Shown: positions 7,524-13,907 of the stretch, piece after piece | Numbering within the stretch: position 1 is the first letter of the stretch | How the letters are laid out: each line of letters starts with the position of its first letter | DNA from: Candidatus Denitrolinea symbiosum | Lineage (GTDB): Bacteria; Chloroflexota; Anaerolineae; Anaerolineales; Villigracilaceae | Direction: 5' to 3' | Length of the DNA stretch: 64,000 nt | Assembly (NCBI GenBank): GCA_017312345.1 | Contig: BLAA01000001.1 | Location: 930,001 to 994,000, forward strand | Made by a program: the position numbers and the translations under genes | Notes under the pieces: generated by a model | Databases searched by the model: none | Told to the model about the DNA's origin: nothing | The model's input: the letters and a program-made list of their open reading frames with translations, nothing else

Positions 7524-7958
7524 TCAGGCGTTTTCCTTCGAGTCGGACTCCCGTCCCGAAATAAGTCCTGCCGCCTTAAGTTTCCGCGTCCGTCCCTTCC
7601 TGATCTCGCACTCCCAAATCCTGACCACTTTCCAGCCCTTTTGGGTCAGTTCTTTCGTAACCGCCCTGTCTCTGGCTTTGTTCCGCGCGATCTTCTTCCG
7701 CCAATATTCCGCGTGTTCAGATGGGGTGACGTTCCGGCAATTGTGACCATGCCAAAAACAACCGTCCGCGAAAACCGCTATCCGTTTTTCAGGGAAGACG
7801 AAGTCCGGGCGCCCGGCGAGGGTGGAATTCCGCCGCCAGCCGGTGATGCGATGAGACTTGAAAATCTCGATCAACTTGATTTCCGTTGACCGGTTGCCCT
7901 TCGATTTCACCGCCCTCATCACGTCCGAACGCTGTTTTCTGGAAAAAGTGTCCGTCAT
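7524..7958 (-). CDS. vsr: Very short patch repair endonuclease
   Basis: 144 residues. Vsr nicks next to T:G mismatches that arise when 5-methylcytosine deaminates. The conserved N-terminal DTFSRKQRSDVMRAVKSKG, the catalytic aspartate region GRPDFVFP (D52) and FADGCFWHGH with the zinc/catalytic residues are all present, followed by the basic NKARD helix and WEC. The gene overlaps the 3' end of the C5 methyltransferase gene by 4 bases, the usual pairing of repair and modification enzymes. No restriction endonuclease gene is adjacent. Confidence 0.95.
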   Translation of the reverse strand: MTDTFSRKQRSDVMRAVKSKGNRSTEIKLIEIFKSHRITGWRRNSTLAGRPDFVFPEKRIAVFADGCFWHGHNCRNVTPSEHAEYWRKKIARNKARDRAVTKELTQKGWKVVRIWECEIRKGRTRKLKAAGLISGRESDSKENA

Positions 7959-8932
7959 TTTGCGCGCATGGATTTTGGCGGCGCGGCCGCCAGGCTGCCG
8001 TCCAGCAGGACGGGCAAAAACGATTCAAGGACCGCCCGGACGATGTTCACCGGGACCGCGTTCCCGGCCTGCCTGCGGGCCTGCCATTCCGTCACGACGA
8101 TCTTGAACGAATCAGGAAAGCCCTGCAAGCGAAGCATTTCCCGCGGGGTCAATCGGCGTTCCCCGTCAACGAGCAAATAATTGTAAGACGCGCCTGCCCG
8201 TAACGCGCACGAAAACGGATAGGAGGAGATATGCCCGGCCTTGTTCTCGTGCCAGATGGAAGGACTCACGTCCGGCGTGTGTTCGGCCCATCTTTTTTCG
8301 CGGATGTAATCGGAGGCGTAATATTTTTCGGGTACGTCTTTTTCGAGAATCTCGCTCAACGGGGTGAACGTCTCCTGCTTCGGCGGGAATTGAAACGCGG
8401 CCGGCCGGTCCAACCCGACGATGATCACCCGCTCCCGTTTTTGGGGCAAGCCGTAATCCAAAGCGTTCAGCGATTGGTAATAGACCGTATATCCTAACTC
8501 GTCGCGCAGAACGTGCAGGATCTGCTTCAACGTCTCGCCTTTGTTGTGGCCGATCAACCGCTTGACGTTCTCAAGGATAAATCCCCTCGGCTTTTTCGCC
8601 GCCAAAATCCTGGCGATGTCGAAAAACAACGTGCCGCGGGTGTCGTCGAAGCCTCTGCCGTTCCCTATGATGCTGAAGGGCTGGCAGGGAAAACCCGCAA
8701 ATAAAATGTCGTGGTCGGGGATGTCGTTTTCGTGGACCTGCGTGATGTCGCCTGAAGGATACTCGCCAAAGTTGGCGTGATAGGCCGCGCGCGCGCCGGG
8801 GTCAATATCGCTCGAAAAAACGCATCGGGAAGCCAGGCCGTATTTCGAGAAGACCTGCTCCGCGGCGATCCTGAATCCGCCGATGCCGCAGAACAAATCC
8901 ACAAAGCGGATGAGATTGTCGTCGTTTCGCAT
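7955..8932 (-). CDS. DNA (cytosine-5-)-methyltransferase
   Basis: 325 residues with the ordered C5-MTase motifs: I (DLFCGIGGF, 12-20), IV with the catalytic cysteine (GFPCQPFS, C83), VI (ENV, 121-123), VIII (QKRER, 164-168), and IX-X (LTPREMLRLQGFP and QAGNAVPVNI). The variable target-recognition region (about 200-260) is short, so the site cannot be predicted. It transfers a methyl group from S-adenosylmethionine to cytosine in DNA. Coupled to vsr by ATGA; without a partner nuclease nearby it may be a solitary methyltransferase or the remains of a restriction system. Confidence 0.95.
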   Translation of the reverse strand: MRNDDNLIRFVDLFCGIGGFRIAAEQVFSKYGLASRCVFSSDIDPGARAAYHANFGEYPSGDITQVHENDIPDHDILFAGFPCQPFSIIGNGRGFDDTRGTLFFDIARILAAKKPRGFILENVKRLIGHNKGETLKQILHVLRDELGYTVYYQSLNALDYGLPQKRERVIIVGLDRPAAFQFPPKQETFTPLSEILEKDVPEKYYASDYIREKRWAEHTPDVSPSIWHENKAGHISSYPFSCALRAGASYNYLLVDGERRLTPREMLRLQGFPDSFKIVVTEWQARRQAGNAVPVNIVRAVLESFLPVLLDGSLAAAPPKSMRAK

Positions 8933-10322: not shown

Positions 10323-10343
10323 ACCTTTCAAAAAGCATGAACG

Positions 10344-10375
10344 ACAGGGCTGCGGAAAGCAGCCCTGTTTTATTT
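10344..10375 (+). terminator. Intrinsic terminator of the cold-shock gene
   Basis: A perfect 10-bp stem ACAGGGCTGC/GCAGCCCTGT with a GGAAA loop is followed by TTTATTT. Confidence 0.9.
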
Positions 10376-10451: not shown

Positions 10452-10506
10452 GTGACAAATGTCAGTGTGTAATGCCCCTGTTTGCGAAAGAGGAAGTGGA
10501 TATAAT
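10452..10506 (+). promoter_or_regulatory. Candidate promoter with TGACA/TGTCA dyad before the redox module
   Basis: TATAAT at 10501-10506 is a clear -10 box without a good -35. The dyad TGACA-AA-TGTCA (10453-10464) is centred about 53 bases upstream of the likely transcription start, a distance used by some activators. Which regulator binds is unknown; no CRP/FNR gene is adjacent. Confidence 0.4.
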
Positions 10507-10620: not shown

Positions 10621-10905
10621 ATGAGCCTGAAAGGAAGCATGTCGTTGTTGGGTTTGTTTCGCCATGAATCTGCGCGTCGCAAGGCGCTCAGCGCCGGACA
10701 GGTTGTGCCAGATCGGATGCGCTGCGTGCAATGCGGGATCTGTTCATACAATTGCCCGATCAACATTGACGTGCGCCGCCATGCCTGGACCGGCGAGGCT
10801 GTGCAAAACAGCCGCTGCCTGACGTGCGGCGAATGTGTGGCGCGTTGTCCGCGCGGGGCTTTGCGCTTCGAACGCACGGACCTGTTTGGGGAGACGGCTA
10901 AATGA
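10621..10905 (+). CDS. Two-cluster [4Fe-4S] ferredoxin-like protein
   Basis: 94 residues with two complete cluster motifs: C35, C38, C41 and C45 (CVQCGICSYNCP) and C66, C69, C72 and C76 (CLTCGECVARCP), each ending in CP as in 8Fe ferredoxin domains of the HdrC/GlpC type. It should carry electrons between the FAD oxidoreductase encoded next (4-base ATGA overlap) and the membrane or cytochrome components that follow. The N terminus (MSLKGSMSLLGLF) is not a signal peptide, so it is cytoplasmic. Confidence 0.88.
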   Translation: MSLKGSMSLLGLFRHESARRKALSAGQVVPDRMRCVQCGICSYNCPINIDVRRHAWTGEAVQNSRCLTCGECVARCPRGALRFERTDLFGETAK

Positions 10906-12221
10906 CGCGTTATCTCATCCTGGGCATGGGCGTGGCCGGGATCGCCGCGGCGGAGGCGATCCGCTCCACGGCGCCGGGCGCGGAAATCCTTCTGCTCAGC
11001 GACGATCCGTTCGGCTACTACTCGCGCCCAGGACTGGCTTATTACCTGACGGGGGAGATGGCCGAAAAGCAATTGTTCCCGTTTACCATAGGCGACTTCC
11101 ATAAGCTGCATAGCCGATATGTGCAAGGGCGCGCCACCGCGATTTTCCGCGGCGAACGCCAAATCGAAGTGGATGGGAAGAACCGCATCTCTTATGATCG
11201 CCTGTTGATCGCGGTTGGCGCGCGGGCGCTTCCCTTGACCGTCCCCGGCGCGCATCTCGAAGGCGTGCTTAAACTGGACCACATGGGCGACGCCCGCCAG
11301 ATCCTTCAGGCCAGCCGCAGGGCCAAACACGCGGCCGTGGTGGGAGGCGGCATCACCGCGTTGGAACTGGCAGAAGGATTGCTCTCGCAAAGAGTGAAGA
11401 CAACCTACCTTCTGCGCGGCGACCGTTACTGGAGCAGCGTGCTGGACGAGCAGGAATCGTTGATCGTGGAGGAACGCCTCAGGGAGCAGGGGGTGGAACT
11501 GATCCGCCGCGCCGAGTTGCTCGAAGCGTTCGGCAGGCGCGGCCGCGTGGAGGGAATCCGCCTGCTGGACGGGCGCGCGCTTCGCTGCGACCTGCTGGCG
11601 TACGCCATCGGCATCCAGCCACGCGTGGAACTGGCAAGGGACGCGGGCCTCGCGGTGGATAAGGGCATTCTCGTCAACGAATGCCTGCAGACCAACGATC
11701 CCGATATTTTTGCGGCAGGCGATGCGGCCCAGGCCTATGATCCTCTGACCGGCCGCTCCATCATCGACAGCCTTTGGAATCCCGCCCGTGAGCAGGGACG
11801 CGTGGCAGGCCTCAATATGGCGGGGAAGAAGACCGCCTACCTCAAGTCTGTGCCGTTCAACGTGACGCGCCTCGCGGGGTTGACGACCACCATCATCGGC
11901 GCGATCGGGCGCGGCGGACGCGACGAGGATCTGGTCGGAATCGCCCGCGGCGACAGCGAAACGTTCCGCTCGCTGCCAGACGCCATCCTGGCGCAATCGG
12001 GGTTTGACGTGAATCATTTGCGCCTGATGATCGGCAGGAAAACCCTGCTTGGCGCGCTGGTGATGGGCGACCAAACCCTGTCCATGCCGCTGCAAAAAAT
12101 GATCGCGGACGAGGCAGACATCACGCCTATTCGCAGCCGCCTGCTGGCGCGCGACACGAGGATTGCCGATGTGGTGGCGGAGTTTTGGAAGGAATGGTCG
12201 AAGACGCCGGCGGCCGCGTAA
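10902..12221 (+). CDS. FAD-dependent pyridine nucleotide-disulphide-type oxidoreductase
   Basis: 439 residues with two dinucleotide-binding folds: FAD near the N terminus (ILGMGVAGIAAAEAIRS) and NAD(P)H in the middle (AAVVGGGITALELAEG), then the FAD-contact motif DIFAAGDAAQA. It belongs to the nitrite reductase/rubredoxin reductase-like branch: there is no redox-active CxxxxC. About 60 residues beyond the usual end form a short C-terminal domain with KMIADEADIT. It probably moves electrons between NAD(P)H and the ferredoxin-like partner encoded just upstream. Confidence 0.88.
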   Translation: MTRYLILGMGVAGIAAAEAIRSTAPGAEILLLSDDPFGYYSRPGLAYYLTGEMAEKQLFPFTIGDFHKLHSRYVQGRATAIFRGERQIEVDGKNRISYDRLLIAVGARALPLTVPGAHLEGVLKLDHMGDARQILQASRRAKHAAVVGGGITALELAEGLLSQRVKTTYLLRGDRYWSSVLDEQESLIVEERLREQGVELIRRAELLEAFGRRGRVEGIRLLDGRALRCDLLAYAIGIQPRVELARDAGLAVDKGILVNECLQTNDPDIFAAGDAAQAYDPLTGRSIIDSLWNPAREQGRVAGLNMAGKKTAYLKSVPFNVTRLAGLTTTIIGAIGRGGRDEDLVGIARGDSETFRSLPDAILAQSGFDVNHLRLMIGRKTLLGALVMGDQTLSMPLQKMIADEADITPIRSRLLARDTRIADVVAEFWKEWSKTPAAA

Positions 12222-12281
12222 TTTTGAACGCCCGGCCACTTCACTGCGTGGCCGCAACTTCCAGGAAAAGAGAAAGATGAA

Positions 12282-12833
12282 ATGTTGCGAGGAAAAGAAC
12301 TGTGGATGGCCGCCCTGGCTGCGGTTTTAATTAGCGGCGTCTATGGGGCGACGGTCTTTTTGACGCGCGAAATCCCCCCTGCCGCGGACCTGTTTGGTCA
12401 TTCGTTGGGAATCCTCGGCTTCATCCTGATGCTGATGACCGAGACGCTCTACAGCCTGCGTAAACGAAGCCGCAGCGCCAAATGGGGCAGAATGTCTTCC
12501 TGGCTGGAATTCCATATCTTTACCGGCCTGGTGGGACCGTTCATGGCCTTGCTGCATACTTCCTGGAAATTCAACGGGCTGGCCGGAGCGATCACGCTCT
12601 TCACCGTCGTCATCGTGATCAGCGGGTTTGTGGGACGTTACATCTACACGCGCGTCCCGCGCACGCTGGAGGGAACCGAGATCGAAGGGACGCTTTCGGA
12701 AGCGGCATTGCGTCAGACGCGGCGCCTGATGGCGCTGTGGCACACGATCCACATCCCGATCGGCATGGCCTTGTTTGTGGCCGCGTTCGTCCACATCGGC
12801 GCGGCGCTGTATTACGCCACGTTTCTGAAATAA
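12282..12833 (+). CDS. Membrane protein, probable b-type cytochrome
   Basis: 183 residues with four hydrophobic segments. Histidines lie within or at the ends of these segments: H40, H78, H92, H154, H157 and H171. Pairs such as H78/H92 and H154 or H157 with H171 could ligate two haems, as in small cytochrome b subunits and ferric-reductase-like proteins. No named family is recognised with certainty. Between a flavin/ferredoxin pair and a multihaem cytochrome c, it is well placed to carry electrons across the membrane. Confidence 0.65.
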   Translation: MLRGKELWMAALAAVLISGVYGATVFLTREIPPAADLFGHSLGILGFILMLMTETLYSLRKRSRSAKWGRMSSWLEFHIFTGLVGPFMALLHTSWKFNGLAGAITLFTVVIVISGFVGRYIYTRVPRTLEGTEIEGTLSEAALRQTRRLMALWHTIHIPIGMALFVAAFVHIGAALYYATFLK

Positions 12834-12845
12834 AAAGGAGGGAGA

Positions 12846-13907
12846 ATGCGCAATTCGCGACTCGGTTGTTTTACCTTCAGCGGAATTATGGCCGCGCTCA
12901 TCACGGCGCTCGTCATTGGGATCGCGGCATTCACCCAGGGCGGGGTTATGTATAGCCCCGGCGCCCTCAACGCGCAGCCTGGGGCGAGACTCGGCGGCGT
13001 TACCTCCCACGCGGAAACGGGCGGAAACTGCAAAGCCTGCCATGTCGCGCCCTGGGAGACCCAGACCATGGCCGACCGCTGCATCGTCTGTCATGTGGAT
13101 GTGGCGGCGCAGATGCGCCAGGTCGCGTCGCTGCATGGGGCGATGAAGGGCAGGAATCCCAATATGAACTGTTTTCCCTGCCACCCCGACCACCGCGGCG
13201 CGCAGGCGCCGCTCACCGTCGCAGACATGGCGGATTTTCCGCATGAGAGTTTGGGATACTCGCTGAACGGCCACCGGCTCAAAGTTACGGGCGAGGCGTT
13301 TGCCTGCCGCGATTGCCACACAGACGGCGTCGCCGCGTTCCATACCGCGGCCTGCTCCGACTGTCACCGTCAAATGGACGCGGCCTTCACCGCCGCGCAC
13401 GAGACGGACTGGGGCGGCGACTGCCTGTCGTGCCATGATGGCGTGGATACTTACGGGGACGATTTCGATCACAACCGCTTCGCCTTTCCGCTCGCGGGCC
13501 GGCACATGGACGTTTCCTGCCGCGACTGCCACGCGAACGCGCGCACGATCGCGGACTTGCAGGCCGCGCCTCAGGACTGCGCGGCCTGCCACGCCGATCC
13601 TCCTTTCCATGCGGGGTTGTTTGGAACGGACTGCGTTTCCTGCCACACCGCCACAGCGTGGAGGCCCGCGTCGTTCAATGGACGACATACCTTCCCGCTG
13701 GATCACGGCGAGGGCGGGACAGTCTCGTGCGCGGTCTGCCATCCCAGCGGTTATACAACCTACACCTGTTATGGCTGCCATGAACACGATGAAGCCGAAG
13801 TGCGTTCAAAACACTTGGAGGAGGGCATCCCCGATTTCCAAAACTGCATGGAATGTCATCCCGCTGGGAACAAGGACGAGGGCGGCGGGCGCGACGATGA
13901 CGATTGA
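12846..13907 (+). CDS. Dodecahaem cytochrome c (cytochrome c3-like)
   Basis: 353 residues with an N-terminal membrane anchor or signal (about 10-30) and twelve CxxCH haem-binding motifs: CKACH, CIVCH, CFPCH, CRDCH twice, CSDCH, CLSCH, CAACH, CVSCH, CAVCH, CYGCH and CMECH. Extra histidines between them (for example SLHGAMKG and NGRHTFPLDH) can serve as distal ligands. The tail is acidic (GGGRDDDD). It lies 12 bases after the b-type protein gene, behind GGAGG. It should sit outside the membrane as the terminal or entry point of the electron chain encoded by these four genes; the partner substrate is unknown. Confidence 0.92.
   Translation: MRNSRLGCFTFSGIMAALITALVIGIAAFTQGGVMYSPGALNAQPGARLGGVTSHAETGGNCKACHVAPWETQTMADRCIVCHVDVAAQMRQVASLHGAMKGRNPNMNCFPCHPDHRGAQAPLTVADMADFPHESLGYSLNGHRLKVTGEAFACRDCHTDGVAAFHTAACSDCHRQMDAAFTAAHETDWGGDCLSCHDGVDTYGDDFDHNRFAFPLAGRHMDVSCRDCHANARTIADLQAAPQDCAACHADPPFHAGLFGTDCVSCHTATAWRPASFNGRHTFPLDHGEGGTVSCAVCHPSGYTTYTCYGCHEHDEAEVRSKHLEEGIPDFQNCMECHPAGNKDEGGGRDDDD

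Follow-up and report, generated by a model that had tools for sequence, protein, structure and literature searches.

The window analyzed here is a 64,000-nucleotide stretch of DNA (930001-994000) from a 3.7 Mb genome of the Anaerolineales (Chloroflexota). We detected in it four consecutive genes, encoding a ferredoxin, a flavoprotein, a small membrane protein and a multihaem cytochrome (Table 1), that are separated by only -4, 60 and 12 bases and form one operon. A terminator-like hairpin sets the four genes apart from a cold-shock gene upstream, and a TATAAT box follows the hairpin, both being consensus matches only in a region where hairpins are no more numerous than expected by chance. Many relatives of the ferredoxin are only 85-88 aa long, and its start may for this reason be at M7 (10639) instead. 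An earlier sequence-only reading had the coordinates, gene order, haem count and six membrane-protein histidines right, according to the ORFs, the 12 CXXCH motifs and the histidines at 40, 78, 92, 154, 157 and 171.

Table 1. Features of the four-gene operon and the region upstream of it, in window coordinates
Feature	Position	Strand	Description
Terminator-like hairpin, 3' of upstream cold-shock gene	10343-10369	+	suggestive by position only
TATAAT, -10-like box	10501-10506	+	read off sequence; 115 bases upstream of ferredoxin gene
8-iron ferredoxin	10621-10905	+	94 aa; two CX2CX2CX3CP motifs; Fer4_7 38.1 bits, E 2e-9
FAD/NAD(P)H oxidoreductase	10902-12221	+	439 aa; Pyr_redox_2 165.8 bits
Five-helix di-haem b-type membrane cytochrome (predicted)	12282-12833	+	183 aa; PF01292 32.7 bits
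12-haem c-type cytochrome	12846-13907	+	353 aa; exactly 12 CXXCH; Cytochrome_C7/Cytochrom_CIII

Histidine pairs and family of the membrane protein

The AlphaFold2 model of the membrane protein (pLDDT 86, built from 59 family members) predicts five helices, at residues 5-28, 37-62, 71-91, 99-123 and 140-180, in place of the four membrane segments claimed previously. Close relatives retain all six histidines, and H78, H92, H157 and H171 are the only four kept family-wide. They form two HX13H pairs, H78/H92 in helix 3 and H157/H171 in helix 5, an arrangement arising in 0.8% of shuffles of the window's membrane protein alone. Both pairs were kept in 12 of 12 remote Chloroflexota homologues and were also detected in plasmid-borne homologues from other phyla, namely those of Glaciecola, Emticicia, Bradyrhizobium, Roseomonas and Alteromonas. 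The other two histidines, H40 and H154, are absent from some homologues; H40 is missing from Ktedonobacterial-type and several proteobacterial homologues, being dispensable in remote homologues, and could be a helix-1-type b561 ligand in the close relatives.

The loops after helices 2 and 4 would face the cytoplasm according to the positive-inside rule, because they are Arg/Lys-rich. By their depth in the helices, H78 and H157 share a level at the Arg/Lys-rich side, and H92 and H171 share one at the opposite side, so that, given this orientation, H78/H157 are the candidate ligands of an inner b haem and H92/H171 of an outer one. Haems of the c type are joined to their proteins on the outer side of the cytoplasmic membrane. 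In the relative L120, c-type haem motifs are fused directly after helix 5 of the b-cytochrome, which places the end of this helix outside and supports the predicted topology.

The membrane protein had been described as fitting no family. It narrowly passed the cut-off of 30.1 bits for PF01292 (prokaryotic cytochrome b561), and its remote homologues score under this cut-off. Its ligands, however, are laid out as in the ferric-reductase domain. PF01292 was matched at E <=1 in 58 of 59 relatives, while PF01794 (ferric reductase domain) was matched at this level in only 6 of the 59 and was not reached by the window's protein (11.2 versus a cut-off of 28 bits). The MsrQ/FRE/NOX proteins (PF01794) hold two haems between two helices, each with a spaced histidine pair, the E. 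coli MsrQ having two HX12H pairs. In the b561-type E. coli proteins CybB, FdnI and YodB, in contrast, HX13H occurs only once, towards the C-terminal end. In the CybB/FdnI ligand layout as we take it, helices 1 and 2 each contribute one His and the last helix contributes the HX13H pair; the window's protein departs from this layout. The two pairs on helices 3 and 5 fit two stacked b haems, as in ferric reductases, NOX and MsrQ.

The comparison with solved structures gave only modest fold matches, the best being CybB, superposed on helices 2-5 of the model (VIA-align, best Z 9.8 over 135 residues). The b-type cytochromes among the VIA-align matches (CybB, b561, FdnI, HyaC, SpNOX) were intermixed with unrelated helical bundles of similar Z, and CybB alone was used, cautiously. 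The placing of H40, H78 and the other histidines on CybB/FdnI by alignment is unreliable, and the comparison therefore relies on motif spacing. A Foldseek search of the PDB returned nothing significant for the membrane protein, and the profile search of solved structures gave no relative of it or of the 12-haem cytochrome. We describe the membrane protein as an unnamed subfamily between b561 and the ferric-reductase domain, filed under neither.

The histidine layout of ferric reductases, NOX and MsrQ, together with the likeness to the superoxide oxidase CybB, would also suit a reductase of ferric iron (or of another metal or siderophore) for iron assimilation, or an enzyme of superoxide/oxidative stress, instead of respiration or electron disposal. 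We consider such a function very improbable, since 12 to 33 haems per cytochrome are excessive for assimilation and no recognisable iron-uptake genes adjoin the operon in the window, as judged by eye.

Electron input and the multihaem cytochrome

Both Cys motifs of the ferredoxin are conserved among 72 aligned relatives, and the protein appears to be soluble and cytoplasmic. The nucleotide site of the FAD protein has GGGxxA and the invariant R172 (73 of 73), presumably the pattern typical of NADPH binding, and this predicted site type suggests that the nucleotide is probably NADPH. PadH is the nearest NCBIfam model of the FAD protein and AorC (8c0z chain E) its nearest solved structure, both being NAD(H)-linked flavoprotein subunits, and the ferredoxin gene matches include a PadF model. 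Neither Pad cut-off was reached (PadH equivalog, 164 versus 475 bits; PadF, 32 versus 150 bits). The operon differs from the Pad and AorC systems by having no 2-oxoacid or tungsten catalytic subunits and by Arg at the nucleotide-specificity position, where AorC has Glu matching R172. The assignment to Pad (NADH-dependent phenylglyoxylate dehydrogenase) or to an AOR complex was dropped because of the missing catalytic subunit. A disulphide/persulphide reductase identity was also dropped, as the active-site Cys of CoA-disulphide reductase/NADH oxidase (near residue 43) is absent, with YSRPGLAYY found there; C229 is the sole conserved cysteine in the alignment. In Emticicia, the 2x[4Fe-4S] and Pyr_redox parts are in a single chain, beside the b-cytochrome and 23- and 18-haem cytochromes, and this fusion supports the cooperation of the ferredoxin and the FAD protein.

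The operon has no substrate-specific catalytic subunit, in agreement with the sequence-only reading, and no quinone-linked subunit. The four proteins gave no match over cut-off that would make them members of a known nitrite, sulphur or tetrathionate reductase complex; neither a catalytic subunit of these enzymes nor an NrfH, NrfD or TtrC partner was found among them or in the operon.

The 12-haem cytochrome has an N-terminal signal/anchor helix, suggesting that it is exported and anchored outside. Its AlphaFold2 model (pLDDT 63, pTM 0.37) is too poor for a fold search. The cytochromes of relatives vary in length and carry 14-33 haems, and in many of the relatives another cytochrome, with as many as 47 haems, lies in tandem. 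The 12 haems of the window's protein are at the low end among intact copies, and it is the shortest intact cytochrome seen and may not reach far.

Conservation of the gene order and exchange of partners

The same gene order was sought elsewhere, as had been proposed, and was found in most of the 79 other Anaerolineales contigs carrying the membrane protein, so that the grouping is not a product of chance. The complete four-gene set was together in 63 of the 68 loci with enough flank (~93%) from these contigs of other genomes. Over-extended ORF calls explain two of the five exceptions (L046 and L099); the remaining three (L074, L098 and L102) either truly depart from the arrangement or are truncated. 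The flanking genes are variable, with the commonest upstream family at 27 of 63 loci and the commonest downstream family at 23 of 67, and generic synteny was dropped as the cause of the linkage for this reason. The module is common, not universal, within the host's family (about two thirds of 37 genomes), and the membrane protein is patchy across the phylum (34 of 301 genomes). Taken together, the module is real, conserved, widespread and unnamed; no account of the operon was found in the open-access literature searched.

Several distant relatives have other dehydrogenase modules and other cytochromes, one such module being a FAD/NAD/2Fe-2S protein of the ferric-reductase type. In L114 and Glaciecola a single chain combines FAD_binding_6, NAD_binding_1 and Fer2, and in Alteromonas an equivalent 2Fe-2S protein of 644 residues takes its place; in all three, the b-cytochrome and then a 7-haem cytochrome come next. 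The same three parts are split over two adjacent genes in Roseomonas, with no cytochrome gene annotated adjoining. The NAD_binding_1/Fer2 protein of Bradyrhizobium is shorter, perhaps because the neighbouring transposase has truncated it, and it too precedes the b-cytochrome and a cytochrome with 7 haems. L111, L115 and L121, which we take to be of Ktedonobacterial type by their general appearance, retain the FAD protein, ferredoxin and b-cytochrome with no multihaem gene nearby, so the output is not necessarily extracellular. These swaps identify the b-cytochrome as the constant element, with exchangeable input and output.

The Glaciecola and Alteromonas homologues are directly upstream of [NiFe] hydrogenase genes. 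The A. macleodii/Glaciecola plasmid order (b-cytochrome homologue, 7-haem c, 407-residue protein, hydrogenase protease, HupH-type protein, then the small and the large subunit) is that of the published HynSL cluster, orf1/cyt/orf2/hynD/hupH/hynS/hynL (PMC3102683), and the Orf1 counterpart carries both histidine pairs of the window's b-cytochrome. The Alteromonas cluster differs from the operon by its FAD_binding_6/NAD_binding_1/Fer2 module and by its hydrogenase linkage. According to the same source, the hydrogenase reached its maximal activity in E. coli without the help of Orf1 and Cyt; no role for the two was found there (PMC3102683).

The periplasmic partner in Alteromonas and Glaciecola is probably the hydrogenase, and hence the direction of the electron flow could be inward. 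An extracellular donor (a partner cell, Fe(II), or H2 via hydrogenase) would then reduce NADP+ or ferredoxin; the components are reversible in principle and the Alteromonas linkage fits H2 uptake. Such a flow, however, opposes the membrane potential and, for most extracellular donors, the redox potential, and the operon has no energy-coupling subunit, making the inward direction very doubtful for the window's operon.

The main alternative, which we consider unlikely but better than these, is that electrons from the conduit go to a separate reductase or hydrogenase in the periplasm (exoplasm) and not to an extracellular acceptor, the 12-haem cytochrome being a local electron hub. The hydrogenase linkage agrees with it, as do NrfAH, molybdopterin oxidoreductases and an octahaem protein, encoded elsewhere in the host genome and not in the operon (the multihaem genes were located by a paired-CXXCH pattern, which can miss some). 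No catalytic gene, however, is linked in the window or is a constant neighbour in about 70 Anaerolineales loci, and the 14-33 haems in relatives, with tandem cytochromes of up to 47 haems, are far beyond the need of a short hub.

A candidate NADPH-to-exterior electron conduit

We favour, with some reservation, the operon as a quinone-independent transmembrane conduit for electrons from NADPH to the exterior, probably used for extracellular electron disposal, with the acceptor and the direction being inferred. In the cytoplasm, the FAD protein would oxidise NAD(P)H, probably NADPH, and pass electrons to its partner ferredoxin, which would reduce the five-helix cytochrome at its inner b haem (H78/H157). 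The electrons would then cross the membrane to the outer b haem (H92/H171) and reach the exported, externally anchored 12-haem cytochrome, the predicted donor to an acceptor outside the cell (minerals, humics or a partner cell) or, in relatives, to the second cytochrome. The sequence-only reading had drawn a path from NAD(P)H to the cell surface. Its chain from NAD(P)H through flavin/Fe-S and two b haems to the multihaem c-cytochrome is supported by the gene order, the histidine layout, the topology, the fusions and the input swaps, while its cell-surface end, with the outward direction, is still a conjecture. The mechanism is plausible, with good comparative support from sequence data. Outward electrons without a proton would dissipate the membrane potential, as NADPH oxidases do, and for this reason the benefit would probably be redox disposal (NADP+ regenerated without H2) and not energy coupling.

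The MsrQ/FRE/NOX systems resemble the predicted conduit in having cytoplasmic NAD(P)H/flavin input and an acceptor outside, but the output of the operon is a multihaem cytochrome, and its flavin and Fe-S clusters are on separate proteins. CymA, ImcH, CbcL and Ndh2/EetAB are known entry proteins of extracellular electron transfer, leading from metabolism to exported carriers, and draw on quinones or on a dedicated NADH dehydrogenase with demethylmenaquinone. In contrast, the b-cytochrome of the operon is apparently fed directly by pyridine nucleotide. In two Anaerolineales genomes, a bioanode study found large multihaem cytochromes but not a porin-cytochrome complex, a lack attributed to the non-Gram-negative envelope (PMC7399161); we count these cytochromes in favour of the conduit. 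The study of Ardenticatena maritima described other cytochromes and no such operon (PMC5808234).

More tentatively, and at slightly less than even confidence, we suggest a cross-phylum family of quinone-independent conduits, in which the b-cytochrome with two HX13H pairs would join multihaem c-cytochromes to NAD(P)H dehydrogenase modules that can replace one another, and which in Anaerolineales would be a general route of extracellular or interspecies electron disposal by fermenters. The module also suggests what Orf1 and Cyt might do in the hydrogenase cluster of Alteromonas. It is present in the cultured species Levilinea saccharolytica KIBI-1 (locus L097), which makes direct testing possible. 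A defined path from metabolism to the Anaerolineales multihaem cytochromes was not found in the open-access literature, and the operon is a candidate for such a path, starting at NADPH and bypassing quinones. Digesters and sediments harbour Anaerolineales in abundance, and the operon could be the way in which these bacteria dump electrons outside.

The multihaem cytochrome and its larger counterparts

The Leu6-Gly7-Cys8 motif of the window's 12-haem cytochrome c (12846-13907) was invariant in all 32 aligned cytochromes and lies immediately ahead of the N-terminal hydrophobic helix; Cys8 belongs neither to a CXXCH c-haem motif nor to an ordinary lipobox. A second, tandem cytochrome with 36-47 CXXCH motifs was detected at four related loci (L038, L048, L026, and L087), that of L038 having 1155 residues and, by CXXCH count, 47 haems.

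Other genes and possible repeats

Genes detected outside the four-gene operon
Feature	Location	Remark
Putative very-short-patch repair endonuclease and DNA cytosine methyltransferase genes	window 7524-8932	read by eye
Subtilase/multihaem open frame	L128 1-5738 (contig C3 of the window's own genome, G000)	1911 residues
NrfA and NrfH-like genes	L126 2686-4548 (G000 contig C1)	

The probable repair endonuclease gene adjoins the probable methyltransferase gene. G000 has its own ammonia-forming nitrite reductase (NrfA, NrfH-like), apart from the four-gene operon. In the L128 frame, MtrC/MtrF-like domains and 15 CXXCH motifs share one chain with a subtilase domain and fibronectin III, so that it is possibly a secreted protease-cytochrome fusion.

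Identical matches in reversed orientation, containing ferredoxin-domain genes and one CXXCH gene, were found at ~2383-2389 kb and ~2944-2950 kb of C1, suggesting either that a large segment is duplicated in inverted, near-identical form or that the assembly is at fault here. Two module copies with identical match scores (L092, L093) face each other on contig JANJTV010000076.1, possibly representing an assembly palindrome.

Remote homologues beside putative regulatory domains

The remote b-cytochrome homologues at L118, L119, and L120 neighbour an 800-residue FAD protein and a protein uniting cyclic-nucleotide-binding and 4Fe-4S domains; at L118, the FAD protein also has FHA domains. At L120, the b-cytochrome and a c-haem domain form one chain, followed by a Ser/Thr kinase. 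The arrangement at these three loci looks like a signal-controlled form of the conduit.
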